Assembly: GCA_016193585.1 (NCBI GenBank)
Contig: JACPRW010000009.1
Coordinates: 1-34,704, forward strand
Direction: 5' to 3'
Source of the DNA: Candidatus Aenigmatarchaeota archaeon
GTDB taxonomy: Archaea > Aenigmatarchaeota > Aenigmatarchaeia > GW2011-AR5
DNA length: 34,704 bases
Below the pieces are notes generated by a model. It ran no database searches. It saw nothing but the letters and a program-made list of their open reading frames with translations, and had not been told where the DNA came from. How positions within the stretch are numbered: the stretch's first letter is position 1; every line of letters begins with the position of its first letter. The translations under genes were made by a program, and so were the position numbers. This document shows, in pieces, positions 614 to 34,647 of the stretch.

Positions 614-626
614 AAGAAGGACCTAA

Positions 627-719
627 TAGTATGTTCAGTTTATTTTGGAACATTTTATGCTGAACATACACTATAGCAGGTTCGAACGAAAAGTTCCAGT
701 ATTATTCGAACCTACTATA
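627..719. mobile_element. Double-hairpin element, copy E1 (93 bp)
   Basis: Hairpin 1 has the stem GTATGTTCAG (629-638) / CTGAACATAC (660-669) with a 21-base loop containing TGGAAC. Hairpin 2 has the stem 672-685 / 706-719 (TATAGCAGGTTCGA / TCGAACCTACTATA, one mismatch) with a 20-base loop containing GTTCCA. The two loops are complementary (TGGAAC with GTTCCA). The junction CTATAGCAG and the terminal CTATAAT are shared with E4. TAAT occurs on both sides (624-627 and 718-721), as a possible target duplication. No protein is encoded. Confidence 0.8.
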
Positions 720-869
720 ATGCCTCTTGCGGCGCTCGCCCTACCCCGTTTCAGCGTGCGGATGAATCGCTCACCACGAACAAAGCGGAGCAGCGTGTTC
801 AGTTCAATCCCCGAAAAAATGGAATGCCCCGAGCCCGCCGGAAACGGCAATTCTCTTAACGTCTTCAAT
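720..869. other. Unassigned stretch between element E1 and the HEPN promoter
   Basis: About 150 GC-rich bases with no convincing gene. A minus-strand frame (868 to 671, TTG start) has GC-rich codons and a basic product but runs into E1. It could be the relic of a gene cut by the element. No family is recognised and it is not called as a gene. Confidence 0.3.
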
Positions 870-2889: not shown

Positions 2890-3759
2890 ATGAAAGTGCT
2901 CGTAACCGGCGGCGCAGGCTTTATCGGCTCGCATCTCTCCCGCCGCCTTGTCGCGCTCGGCAACGACGTCGTCGTCATGGACAACCTGTCAACAGGGAAA
3001 AAAGAACACGTCCCTCCAGGGGCGCACTTCATCAAGGGAGACATCTGCGAGCCGCTCACGGTCAGCAGGGCAATGAAGGACTGCTCAGCCGTTTTCCATC
3101 TCGCCGCGTCTGCTGACGCCCGCGGCGACGCCGACACCGATTACAAGGTGAATTTCCTCGGCGCACAGACGGTATTCGAGCGCGCGGCAAAGCATAACGT
3201 CAAGGTTGTGTTCACCTCTTCTGCCGCGGTTTACGGGGACGCAAAAGTGCCGCATCGCGAGGACATCCAGTGCAAACCCGTCTCCCCGTACGGAAAGAGC
3301 AAGCTCAAGGCTGAGCGCGCCGCGCCGAAGAACTCGTTCATCATCCGCGTCTTCAACTGCTACGGGCCGCGCGGCAAGGGCGTCGTCAACACGTTCTGCA
3401 GGAAAATACCGGAATACGAGGACATCACGGTGTACGGCAACGGGCTCCAGACGCGCGACTACGTGTACGTGAGCGACGTGGTCGACGCGCTCCTGCTCGG
3501 CTTCGACAACGCCGGCGTCTACAACGTCGGCACCGGCTCCGAAACGTCGCTCCTCAACCTCATCGACGTCATCCACAAGGTCGCCAATGCAAAGCCTCAT
3601 GTCACGTTCGCACTGGCGCGGCAGGAGGTGGCACGAAGCAGGGCCGACATCGGCAAAATCAGGCGGGAGCTTGGATGGGAACCGAAGATACAGCTCGAGG
3701 AGGGAATCGGTCTGGTGCTGCAGGGCACGAGCCCTGTTCCCGAGAAACCGGCCGCGTAG
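2890..3759 (+). CDS. NAD-dependent sugar-nucleotide epimerase/dehydratase
   Basis: A 289-residue extended short-chain dehydrogenase. The N-terminus has the Rossmann motif VTGGAGFIGSHL. DNLSTGKKEH follows beta-2, TSSAAVYGD provides the catalytic Ser, and SPYGKSK provides the YxxxK pair. A second half with NCYGPRGKG and YNVGTG matches UDP-glucose 4-epimerase-like enzymes that prepare sugars for surface glycans. The exact substrate cannot be read from the sequence. The ATG at 2890 places the glycine motif at the expected distance; an upstream in-frame start would add 18 residues without a homologous role. It converges with a glycosyltransferase gene only 3 bases away. Confidence 0.88.
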   Translation: MKVLVTGGAGFIGSHLSRRLVALGNDVVVMDNLSTGKKEHVPPGAHFIKGDICEPLTVSRAMKDCSAVFHLAASADARGDADTDYKVNFLGAQTVFERAAKHNVKVVFTSSAAVYGDAKVPHREDIQCKPVSPYGKSKLKAERAAPKNSFIIRVFNCYGPRGKGVVNTFCRKIPEYEDITVYGNGLQTRDYVYVSDVVDALLLGFDNAGVYNVGTGSETSLLNLIDVIHKVANAKPHVTFALARQEVARSRADIGKIRRELGWEPKIQLEEGIGLVLQGTSPVPEKPAA

Positions 3760-7265: not shown

Positions 7266-7270
7266 CATAC

Positions 7271-7308
7271 CCAGAGACATTACTATTTGAACAAATTAAT
7301 GTCTCTGG
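7271..7308. other. Perfect 12-bp hairpin
   Basis: CCAGAGACATTA (7271-7282) pairs with TAATGTCTCTGG (7297-7308) around the 14-base loop CTATTTGAACAAAT. It lies between two small genes and could be an mRNA-end structure or a control element for the next gene, whose first ATG is 2 bases further on. The loop's TTGAACA resembles the TTGGAACA loop of elements E1/E4, but the flanking CTATAG is missing. Confidence 0.6.
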
Positions 7309-27962: not shown

Positions 27963-28598
27963 TCAGAGCGTTTTCTTGTACACATGGCATACGATACGCT
28001 CATTCGGGCGAGGTACCCAGTCAACGGCGCCAGCTATGGTATACCCATTCGCTTCCCAGAACGCGAACACTCCATGCTTCTCAAACGGATGGTCGTTGCT
28101 CAGGGGGACGCAGACCATACTGCAGCCCAGTTGTCGTATCAGTTTTTCAGCAGATGCAAGTAACTGCGCGTCTGCTTTCTTGTCCTTATATGGTGAATTG
28201 CACTGGTTATGTCCTGATATTATTTGCAATTCACCTATAGAAAATTGCGCGTTAATACGACATAAGCTGCGCAATTATCTATAATTGGTTTCTGTAGTAA
28301 ACGCAATGATATGCGCCCAGCGTCCGGTCAGAGGCTCTGTCATGCGCATCGCACCAAAGTCTTCTGGGACGTCATTTTCGCCCAGCAGCTCGAACACGAC
28401 AAAGCCGGTTATTGCTTTATCGGTTTCGGCAACCAGAATTCCCTGCGGGAATGATGCCATTTTTCTTGAGAAATAACGGGCATCAGCTCCGTATGCACCG
28501 TATGCCTCCTTGTCGAGCTCCACCAGTTTACTGACATCGTGCTCGGTGGCTTGCCGTACGCGCATCAATCTATCTGCTGCACGCGTATGCGCTTTCAC
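27963..28598 (-). pseudogene. GNAT N-acetyltransferase gene interrupted by a double-hairpin element
   Basis: Two open frames form one GNAT protein. The upstream part (28598 or 28565 to 28275) reads MRVRQATEHDVSKLVELDKEAYG to IIAFTTETNY. The downstream part resumes at 28187 with KDKKADAQLLASAEKLIRQLGC and ends with FEKHGVFAFWEANGYTIAG and VCHVYKKTL. Removing exactly 93 bp restores ...TETNY-KDKKADAQ... and a normal protein of about 169 residues. The insert stays in frame but brings one TAA stop (28275-28277), so readthrough or loss of function are both possible. It overlaps the KH-protein gene by 4 bases (GTGA), indicating an operon. Confidence 0.85.
28187..28283. mobile_element. Double-hairpin element, copy E2, inside the GNAT gene
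   Basis: GGTGAATTGCA (28192-28202) pairs with TGCAATTCACC (28225-28235), flanked by TATA on both sides. AATTGCGC (28243-28250) pairs with GCGCAATT (28269-28276), flanked by TATAG (28236-28240) and CTATA (28279-28283). The loops are complementary: on the minus strand TTATGTC in one and GACATAA in the other. Repeated TAT codons at 28188 and 28281 mark a 93-bp insertion with a TATA-type duplicated target. Confidence 0.85.
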
Positions 28599-32550: not shown

Positions 32551-32739
32551 TATAGCTGACCAACTTAATATTCAGGTATTACACAAGTTGGTCACCTATA
32601 GTGAACCAAGTTATAATAGTAAAGAACATTGATTTTGGAACATTTTACAATGTTCTTTCCCTATAGCAGATTGTGGTAAAAAGTTCCATTATTATTACAA
32701 TCTGCTATAATATCCGGATTCTTTACTTGGTTAACTATA
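32551..32739. mobile_element. Double-hairpin element, copy E3, interrupted by E4
   Basis: Hairpin A: TGACCAACTT (32557-32566) with AAGTTGGTCA (32585-32594), flanked by TATAG (32551-32555) and CTATA (32596-32600). Hairpin B: AACCAAGT (32604-32611) with ACTTGGTT (32725-32732), flanked by TATAGT (32597-32602) and ACTATA (32734-32739). Hairpin B's loop contains the whole of E4. Without E4 the element is 96 bp, and its loops are again largely complementary (TTCAGGTATT with AATATCCGGA, allowing G-U). Confidence 0.78.
32617..32709. mobile_element. Double-hairpin element, copy E4 (93 bp), nested in E3
   Basis: Hairpin 1: AAAGAACATTG (32621-32631) with CAATGTTCTTT (32648-32658), loop containing TGGAAC. 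Hairpin 2: TATAGCAGATTGT (32662-32674) with ACAATCTGCTATA (32697-32709), perfect, loop containing GTTCCA. Length equals E1 exactly. TATAATA occurs on both sides (32612-32618 and 32706-32712). It interrupts the loop of hairpin B of E3. Confidence 0.82.
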
Positions 32740-34511: not shown

Positions 34512-34550
34512 TATATGGTGAATTGCACTGGTTATAGTGGACCAACAAAA
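34512..34550. repeat. Truncated double-hairpin element (E5)
   Basis: The first 24 bases (34512-34535) are identical to E2 bases 28187-28210, including the stem arm GGTGAATTGCA. They then run into TATAGTGGACCAA, matching the start of E3 hairpin B (TATAGTGAACCAA) at 12 of 13 positions. The right arms are missing. It looks like a deletion derivative joining the left arms of both hairpins. The remaining 34551-34640 region holds nothing else recognised. Confidence 0.6.
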
Positions 34551-34647
34551 GAATACCGACATATTACTCGCCTGCGTGAATGCTGCGTGGTCTTGACCCG
34601 CAGATGAGAGCAGGCTCCCTTTTTCTTGAGGCACGTGTAAAAGTTTA

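Follow-up and report, generated by a model that had tools for sequence, protein, structure and literature searches.

The window, that is, the whole 34,704-nt stretch of DNA analysed here, carries four double-hairpin elements, E1 to E4, together with a truncated composite and a single hairpin. E2 lies within a broken acetyltransferase gene, and E4 lies within E3. These features, with the evidence on which the main assignments rest, are as follows:

624–626, plus strand: left target duplication of E1, TAA (sequence and TNA rule)
627–717, plus strand: E1, type A double hairpin, TAG...CTA, 91 bp (blastn, covariance model and ssDNA fold)
718–720, plus strand: right target duplication of E1, TAA (sequence)
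7267–7305, minus strand: single hairpin akin to hairpin 2 of the element at L068:8860-8956, with the partner hairpin absent
27963–28598, minus strand: GNAT-family acetyltransferase gene, broken by E2 (frame restoration; PF00583 across the insertion point)
28189–28190, plus strand: left TA of E2 (sequence and insertion-site comparison)
28191–28281, plus strand: E2, type D double hairpin, TGG...CTA, 91 bp (covariance model and subfamily D comparison)
28282–28283, plus strand: right TA of E2 (sequence and insertion-site comparison)
32553–32737, plus strand: E3, double hairpin TAG...CTA with TA on each side (comparison with uninterrupted copies)
32614–32616, plus strand: left target duplication of E4, TAA (sequence and intact-E3 comparison)
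32617–32707, plus strand: E4, type B double hairpin, TAG...CTA, 91 bp (loop pattern, covariance model and ssDNA fold)
32708–32710, plus strand: right target duplication of E4, TAA (sequence and intact-E3 comparison)
34512–34568, plus strand: truncated composite, the 5' part of a D-type hairpin 1 whose loop holds an inserted partial E-type hairpin

The general layout of a copy is TAG-hairpin 1, a TATAG junction, and hairpin 2-CTA. The common architecture that the initial annotation had proposed for E1 to E4 proved real, with E1, E2 and E4 recovered both by folding and by a covariance model. When folded as single-stranded DNA, E1, E2 and E4 had z-scores of -5.3, -5.9 and -7.6, respectively, and none of 200 dinucleotide shuffles folded as well as any of the three. 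The loops are TTGGAAC (645–651) and GTTCCA (693–698) in E1, TTATGTC (28207–28213) and GACATAA (28259–28265) in E2, and TGGAAC (32636–32641) and GTTCCA (32683–32688) in E4, in line with the pairs first reported (TGGAAC/GTTCCA in E1 and E4, TTATGTC/GACATAA in E2). In E3, the insertion point of E4 is the loop of hairpin 2, and the loops are GGTATTA (32575–32581) and TAATATC (32708–32714), which pair with one G-U; half of the second loop is provided by the duplicated TAA of E4. Hence, the two subtypes previously drawn from loop sequences stand only in part: E1 and E4 do share their loops, but the grouping of E2 with E3 was wrong given the different loops of the latter, and E2 and E3 are separate types. 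Elsewhere in the genome studied (G000), E1 has a twin of identical sequence at G000:C3:328629. Uninterrupted copies of E3 are found at L074:13717 and G000:C9 117104.

These elements are members of a large family. With E1 as query, blastn identified 55 places in the genome studied, and a pattern based on the shared loops identified 29, compared to 0 for the reversed pattern. The covariance model, built from seven dissimilar elements and applied to the search for further copies proposed at the outset, yielded at least 149 matches at E ≤ 1, with some places matched on both strands, so that the lack of additional copies named at the outset as a refutation does not apply. We extracted 125 copies with their flanks, and about 125 copies are well-supported in this 1.17 Mb genome, all short (91–97 bp), non-coding, multicopy and dispersed; the sequence stretches examined around matches cover 487 kb of the genome, ~9% of which is missing according to the completeness estimate. 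The 66 dissimilar elements extracted fall into many subfamilies with unrelated stems, and the columns conserved across subfamilies are the TATAG/CTATA ends and the TATAG junction. This larger set also revealed features beyond those initially annotated, namely target duplications, a restorable gene interruption, additional subfamilies, multi-hairpin forms, and nested composites.

The distribution of the family across the phylum is centred on one order. Matches at E ≤ 0.001 were obtained with the covariance model in 23 of 156 phylum genomes, including the one studied, so that the search of related DPANN genomes suggested in the initial annotation extends the family to 22 further genomes, 21 of them in the same order. 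Within the host family, 17 of 19 genomes bear matches (the host genome and 16 others), while five match-bearing genomes from the 156-genome search represent other families of the same order, and a smaller genome search gave an unchanged picture. The match-bearing Ca. Aenigmatarchaeota come from groundwater and lake sediment habitats. Two genomes stand apart: G139, a member of another family of the same class that is remote from the main clade, has six model matches, possibly through horizontal transfer, and G008 has no match although it is estimated to be 90% complete and its genus-mates (G014, G017 and G018) represent a genus rich in elements.

Stems vary between copies yet stay paired, as first noted on four copies, and this covariation exceeds chance in both types E–G and types A–C. 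In a MAFFT alignment based on sequence alone and comprising 22 elements of types E–G, 97.2% of stem cells are paired and 12 of 26 stem pairs display two-sided changes, while pairing is only 41% in a control with the partner shifted by one column. Types A–C show similar covariation for hairpin 2 and for the loop helix. In both sets, shared ancestry may contribute to the apparent covariation. An unguided scan of the A–C alignment ranked the loop-loop helix second among all covarying helices, with two-sided changes in five of its six pairs, and none of 500 shuffles matched the observed values. Examples of paired loops include GGAAC/GTTCC, GGAGCAT/ATGCTCC, TAAAC/GTTTA, TTATGTC/GACATAA, GTTACAT/ATGTAAC, CGATAT/ATATCG, and GGATAT/ATATCC. 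Across 38 dissimilar elements, the mean loop duplex energy is -5.1 kcal/mol, compared to -3.1 (sd 0.35) for swapped partners, in a test that is conservative through swaps among related loops and liberal through shared ancestry. The observed mean was reached in 0 of 10,000 permutations, and this figure, like that of the shuffles, overstates independence, since the representatives have a common ancestry. The complementary loops and their suggested kissing contact are thus borne out by covariation of the loop helix and by duplex energies beyond those of swapped partners, with the contact weak or absent in a minority of elements (e.g., L046, L050, L051 and L056). Overall, the fold and the kissing contact are very probably kept by selection.

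Insertion sites, interrupted genes and near-identical copies all bear on mobility. Types A–C are flanked by TNA, the variable base of which is the same on the left and on the right in 49 of 52 copies; where this base is not A, agreement is seen in 8 of 11 copies, a level never reached in 20,000 permutations. Types D–H have TA on either side and the bases outside are not copied, a duplicated TA being distinguishable from an element-borne TA only at filled/empty sites. The insertion of E4 into E3, with TAA duplicated, is exactly as predicted from intact E3 copies, and filled/empty site agreement is also found for a D element interrupting a B element. Similarly, removing E2 and one TA yields an uninterrupted minus-strand frame that runs to its stop codon, in which the GNAT match (PF00583) spans the insertion point. 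Other broken genes include an IS1595-type transposase, a Fic-type gene, and a RidA-type gene, the latter probably affected by a deletion after insertion, since only hairpin 2 of the element is left (with a nested F element) and a few residues are seemingly missing. Finally, type D, the E2 subfamily, comprises 22 almost identical copies that differ by five substitutions in total, and its movement is therefore recent. Taken together, these elements almost certainly constitute a family of mobile DNA.

A frame of at least 120 codons spans 46% of insertion sites, compared to 80% of random TA sites, as expected if most insertions into genes are lost. This preference for positions outside long frames would also suit regulatory hairpins useful to the host, such as terminators or mRNA ends, multiplied because of this usefulness. 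Purifying selection against insertions leads to the same intergenic bias, however, and the elements also carry target duplications, nest in one another, and break genes (GNAT, IS1595-type transposase, RidA and Fic), so that this explanation appears extremely improbable. Because the GNAT gene is interrupted by an in-frame insertion of 93 bp, splicing of the element from transcripts was also considered. It was rejected as the main explanation: this insertion adds a stop codon, insertions of types A–C measure 94 bp, and the majority of copies are located outside long frames.

Elements are nested in the loops of others, often at one recurring internal site. F elements are found in the loop of D hairpin 2 at four places, and an E3-type hairpin 2 that contains a D element occurs with three different outer flanks, the other E3 hairpin being missing in two of these. 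These distinct flanks suggest that composites can move, the alternative being deletion. Long forms of types E and F include two extra hairpins between the main ones, arranged as TACAC-hairpin-TGCAC-hairpin-GTGTA; E-type copies with the junction expanded in this way, i.e., by two small-loop hairpins in a TACAC/GTGTA stem, are found at L069:3399-3544, L020:1636-1781, L071:17364-17509, and L074:9122-9267. Separately, a second and unrelated modular repeat family, bounded by AT on each side and reading CTTGAATGCCTTG...CAAGGCATTC...GATGCCATGCTCC...GGAGCATATC in between, was observed across L088-L107, with 49 matching places in the genome (e.g., G000:C8:23346-23526 and G000:C5:53173-53287). It too consists of hairpins with further hairpins inserted, and several double hairpins of types A/C contain it in loop 1, at a constant site.

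The initial annotation had interpreted compensated stems as selection on a folded single strand of either RNA or DNA. The fold is indeed kept between subfamilies; selection on an RNA made from each copy, however, is not indicated, because this should leave more G-U than A-C mismatches and the stems have no such preference: mismatches amount to 15 G-U and 27 A-C among dissimilar elements (C-A in hairpin 2 alone representing 15), and to 25 G-U and 19 A-C within subfamily B. Instead, selection appears to operate on source copies while they transpose as DNA, since inserted copies vary without compensation. The elements could still be transcribed structured RNAs which spread via reverse transcription and whose fold is selected as RNA. 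Compensated stems with a kissing contact are typical of RNA, large multi-hairpin forms occur, several relatives encode a reverse transcriptase, and several loop pairs show G-U forms in the sense orientation, where one-sided changes in the loop helix, from few independent events, yield G-U in the sense strand. Against this, reverse transcriptase is absent from the genome studied, which is the one with the most copies, the stems have no G-U excess, and the TNA/TA duplications are short and exact and lack tails, in keeping with DNA transposition. In addition, the elements have no Rfam match, a search of three element-rich 20-kb stretches returning nothing beyond SRP RNA and a microRNA family below threshold. 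We consider spread through RNA improbable.

If DNA is the recognised form, one or both strands could be folded. Bulged bases in hairpin 2 are mostly located on the 3' arm (40, compared to 18 on the 5' arm), hence the two DNA strands fold differently, and this asymmetry hints that one single DNA strand may be what is recognised. Alternatively, double-stranded DNA would move with both arms extruded as a cruciform, with a junction- or hairpin-cutting nuclease opening the arms and loop pairing stabilising the extrusion. The almost strictly Watson-Crick stems suit simultaneous folding of both strands, and AT-rich arm bases would favour extrusion, but the bulges make the folds of the two strands non-equivalent and no candidate nuclease was found, and this route seems improbable as well.

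Candidate mobilising enzymes were tracked across 15 genomes with different element numbers, using transposase and reverse transcriptase families PF01797, PF01609, PF00078 and PF13358, none of which follows element numbers. The Y1/HUH transposase initially suggested as a possible neighbour is absent from the genome studied based on a PF01797 search, and Y1 is patchy overall (5 of 15 genomes). IS630/Tc1-type DDE_3, which uses TA targets, is similarly absent from the genome studied and present in 3 of 15 genomes. No gene located between two hairpins, as expected for an autonomous or parent copy, was detected in the 487 kb examined, and separated hairpin halves, considered as potential ends of an autonomous element, are explained by nested or extended forms. 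A viral origin of the elements was rejected as well, since viral contigs had no match to three element patterns.

DDE_Tnp_1 is represented in the genome studied by one intact IS5-like gene, the product of which has a SWIM-type N-terminus. Subgroups of the IS5 family generate TNA or TA duplications, which makes IS5-type enzymes the main sequence-reading alternative. The elements would then be ordinary MITEs of an IS5/Harbinger-type element (TNA/TA target), with a transposase binding short terminal double-stranded sequences, and hairpins and loop pairing would only aid replication or excision or be a by-product. The intact gene and a decayed DDE_Tnp_1 gene abutting an element are both consistent with this scenario. 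Yet long terminal inverted repeats are lacking, the ends of one copy being unlike beyond TAG/CTA, and the intact gene has neither such hairpins at its sides nor clear terminal repeats. Furthermore, DDE_Tnp_1 has no match in the element-rich G030, G018 and G009, and compensated stems and loop pairing would be left unexplained. We thus view an IS5/Harbinger origin as unlikely, albeit by no means negligible. The decayed gene (L139:3147-3239, 3237-3613) abuts a C-type element whose first bases are missing, and another TATAG-hairpin is located upstream of the gene. A ~200-bp stretch, ~73% identical between two genomes (L137:2915-3108 and L142:2321-2515), was also observed upstream of related IS5-like transposase genes, and is possibly a non-coding part of that mobile element.

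The reading we favour, with a probability of roughly one half, is that of a non-autonomous MITE-like element for which pairing rather than sequence is conserved and whose folded single strand is recognised by a putative trans-acting transposase. This enzyme would bind two hairpins with TAG and CTA at their bases, presumably held together by the kissing loop-loop contact, then cut at TAG and CTA and join the element into TA or TNA targets, leading to target duplication. Because the enzyme would read shape and TAG/CTA bases instead of stem sequence, source copies would be free to change their stem and loop sequences as long as pairing is kept, which could generate many subfamilies with unrelated stems, and inserted copies would decay without further selection. 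More tentatively, these elements may represent a class of archaeal mobile DNA with an enzyme reading the fold only, i.e., a single-stranded kissing double hairpin with TAG/CTA bases. Should this be the case, subfamilies could lose their sequence identity to one another and still be able to transpose, and mobility would extend to any two hairpins with suitable bases, nested composites included.

As a rule, transposases recognise sequence; IS200/IS605 transposases and integron integrases are known to recognise folded DNA. An element keeping its fold while changing its sequence suggests that the mobilising enzyme reads shape rather than sequence, in which case dozens of subfamilies with a common fold and little else would provide a natural mutagenesis record of what this enzyme reads, in a family large enough to be detected in genomes by a covariance model. 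These data also indicate that the very small genomes of DPANN archaea, for which streamlining is expected, can hold >120 mobile copies nested in each other and in genes. In these lineages, such repeats will disrupt both assemblies and gene calls.

No description of these elements in Aenigmatarchaeota was found in a literature search, which identified mitochondrial analogues and MITE reviews. Among known systems, integron attC sites are single long hairpins carried by gene cassettes, on which IntI acts by site-specific recombination that leaves no target duplication. They resemble the elements described here in their variable stems, in unpaired bases that mark the strand, and in being read by a recombinase as a folded single strand, as would be the case here. 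However, attC sites are attached to cassettes, whereas these elements are free and insert at many TNA/TA sites, with no cassette arrangement seen around copies. REP/REPIN elements mobilised with RAYT (Y1) similarly form hairpin pairs dispersed outside genes, but have a conserved palindrome sequence and no target duplication (PMC3116915, PMC3733652), while TNA is duplicated here. Identity with REPINs was thus rejected, as the genome has no Y1 gene and target duplications are present.

Prokaryotic MITEs are defined by terminal inverted repeats in common with a parent insertion sequence. They are short, non-coding, multicopy, nested, and flanked by target duplications, like the elements described here, and are moved in trans, as is proposed here (PMC10969869). 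For types A–C, this extends to a target duplication of constant length (TNA, 49 of 52). Unlike in MITEs, the ends match for ~3–5 bp only, as TAG(Y)A/T(R)CTA, the inverted repeats are the two internal hairpins, no parent insertion sequence was detected in the 487 kb examined, and pairing is conserved between subfamilies. These elements work like MITEs but lack the terminal inverted repeats that define them.

The closest analogues in the literature consulted are two types of fungal mitochondrial elements. In the mitochondria of Allomyces and other fungi, double-hairpin elements (DHEs), reported by Paquin, Laforest and Lang in 2000 and known to us via excerpts of PMC2800124, are likewise made of two adjacent hairpins, with dispersed copies, evidence of mobility, and insertions in both genes and spacers. 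According to these excerpts, they are mitochondrial, have no flanking duplications, and may move through an RNA intermediate, and loop-loop pairing is not mentioned there (PMC2800124), whereas the archaeal elements have TNA/TA duplications and kissing loops. Yeast mitochondrial GC clusters are also short mobile hairpins; they are flanked by repeats of 2–3 bp (AG or ACT), show bursts of copies with identical sequence, and have no known transposase. They are, however, GC-rich, mitochondrial, and ~42 bp long for GC42 (PMC4478555), whereas the archaeal elements are rich in AT, have two arms and kissing loops, and insert at TNA/TA.
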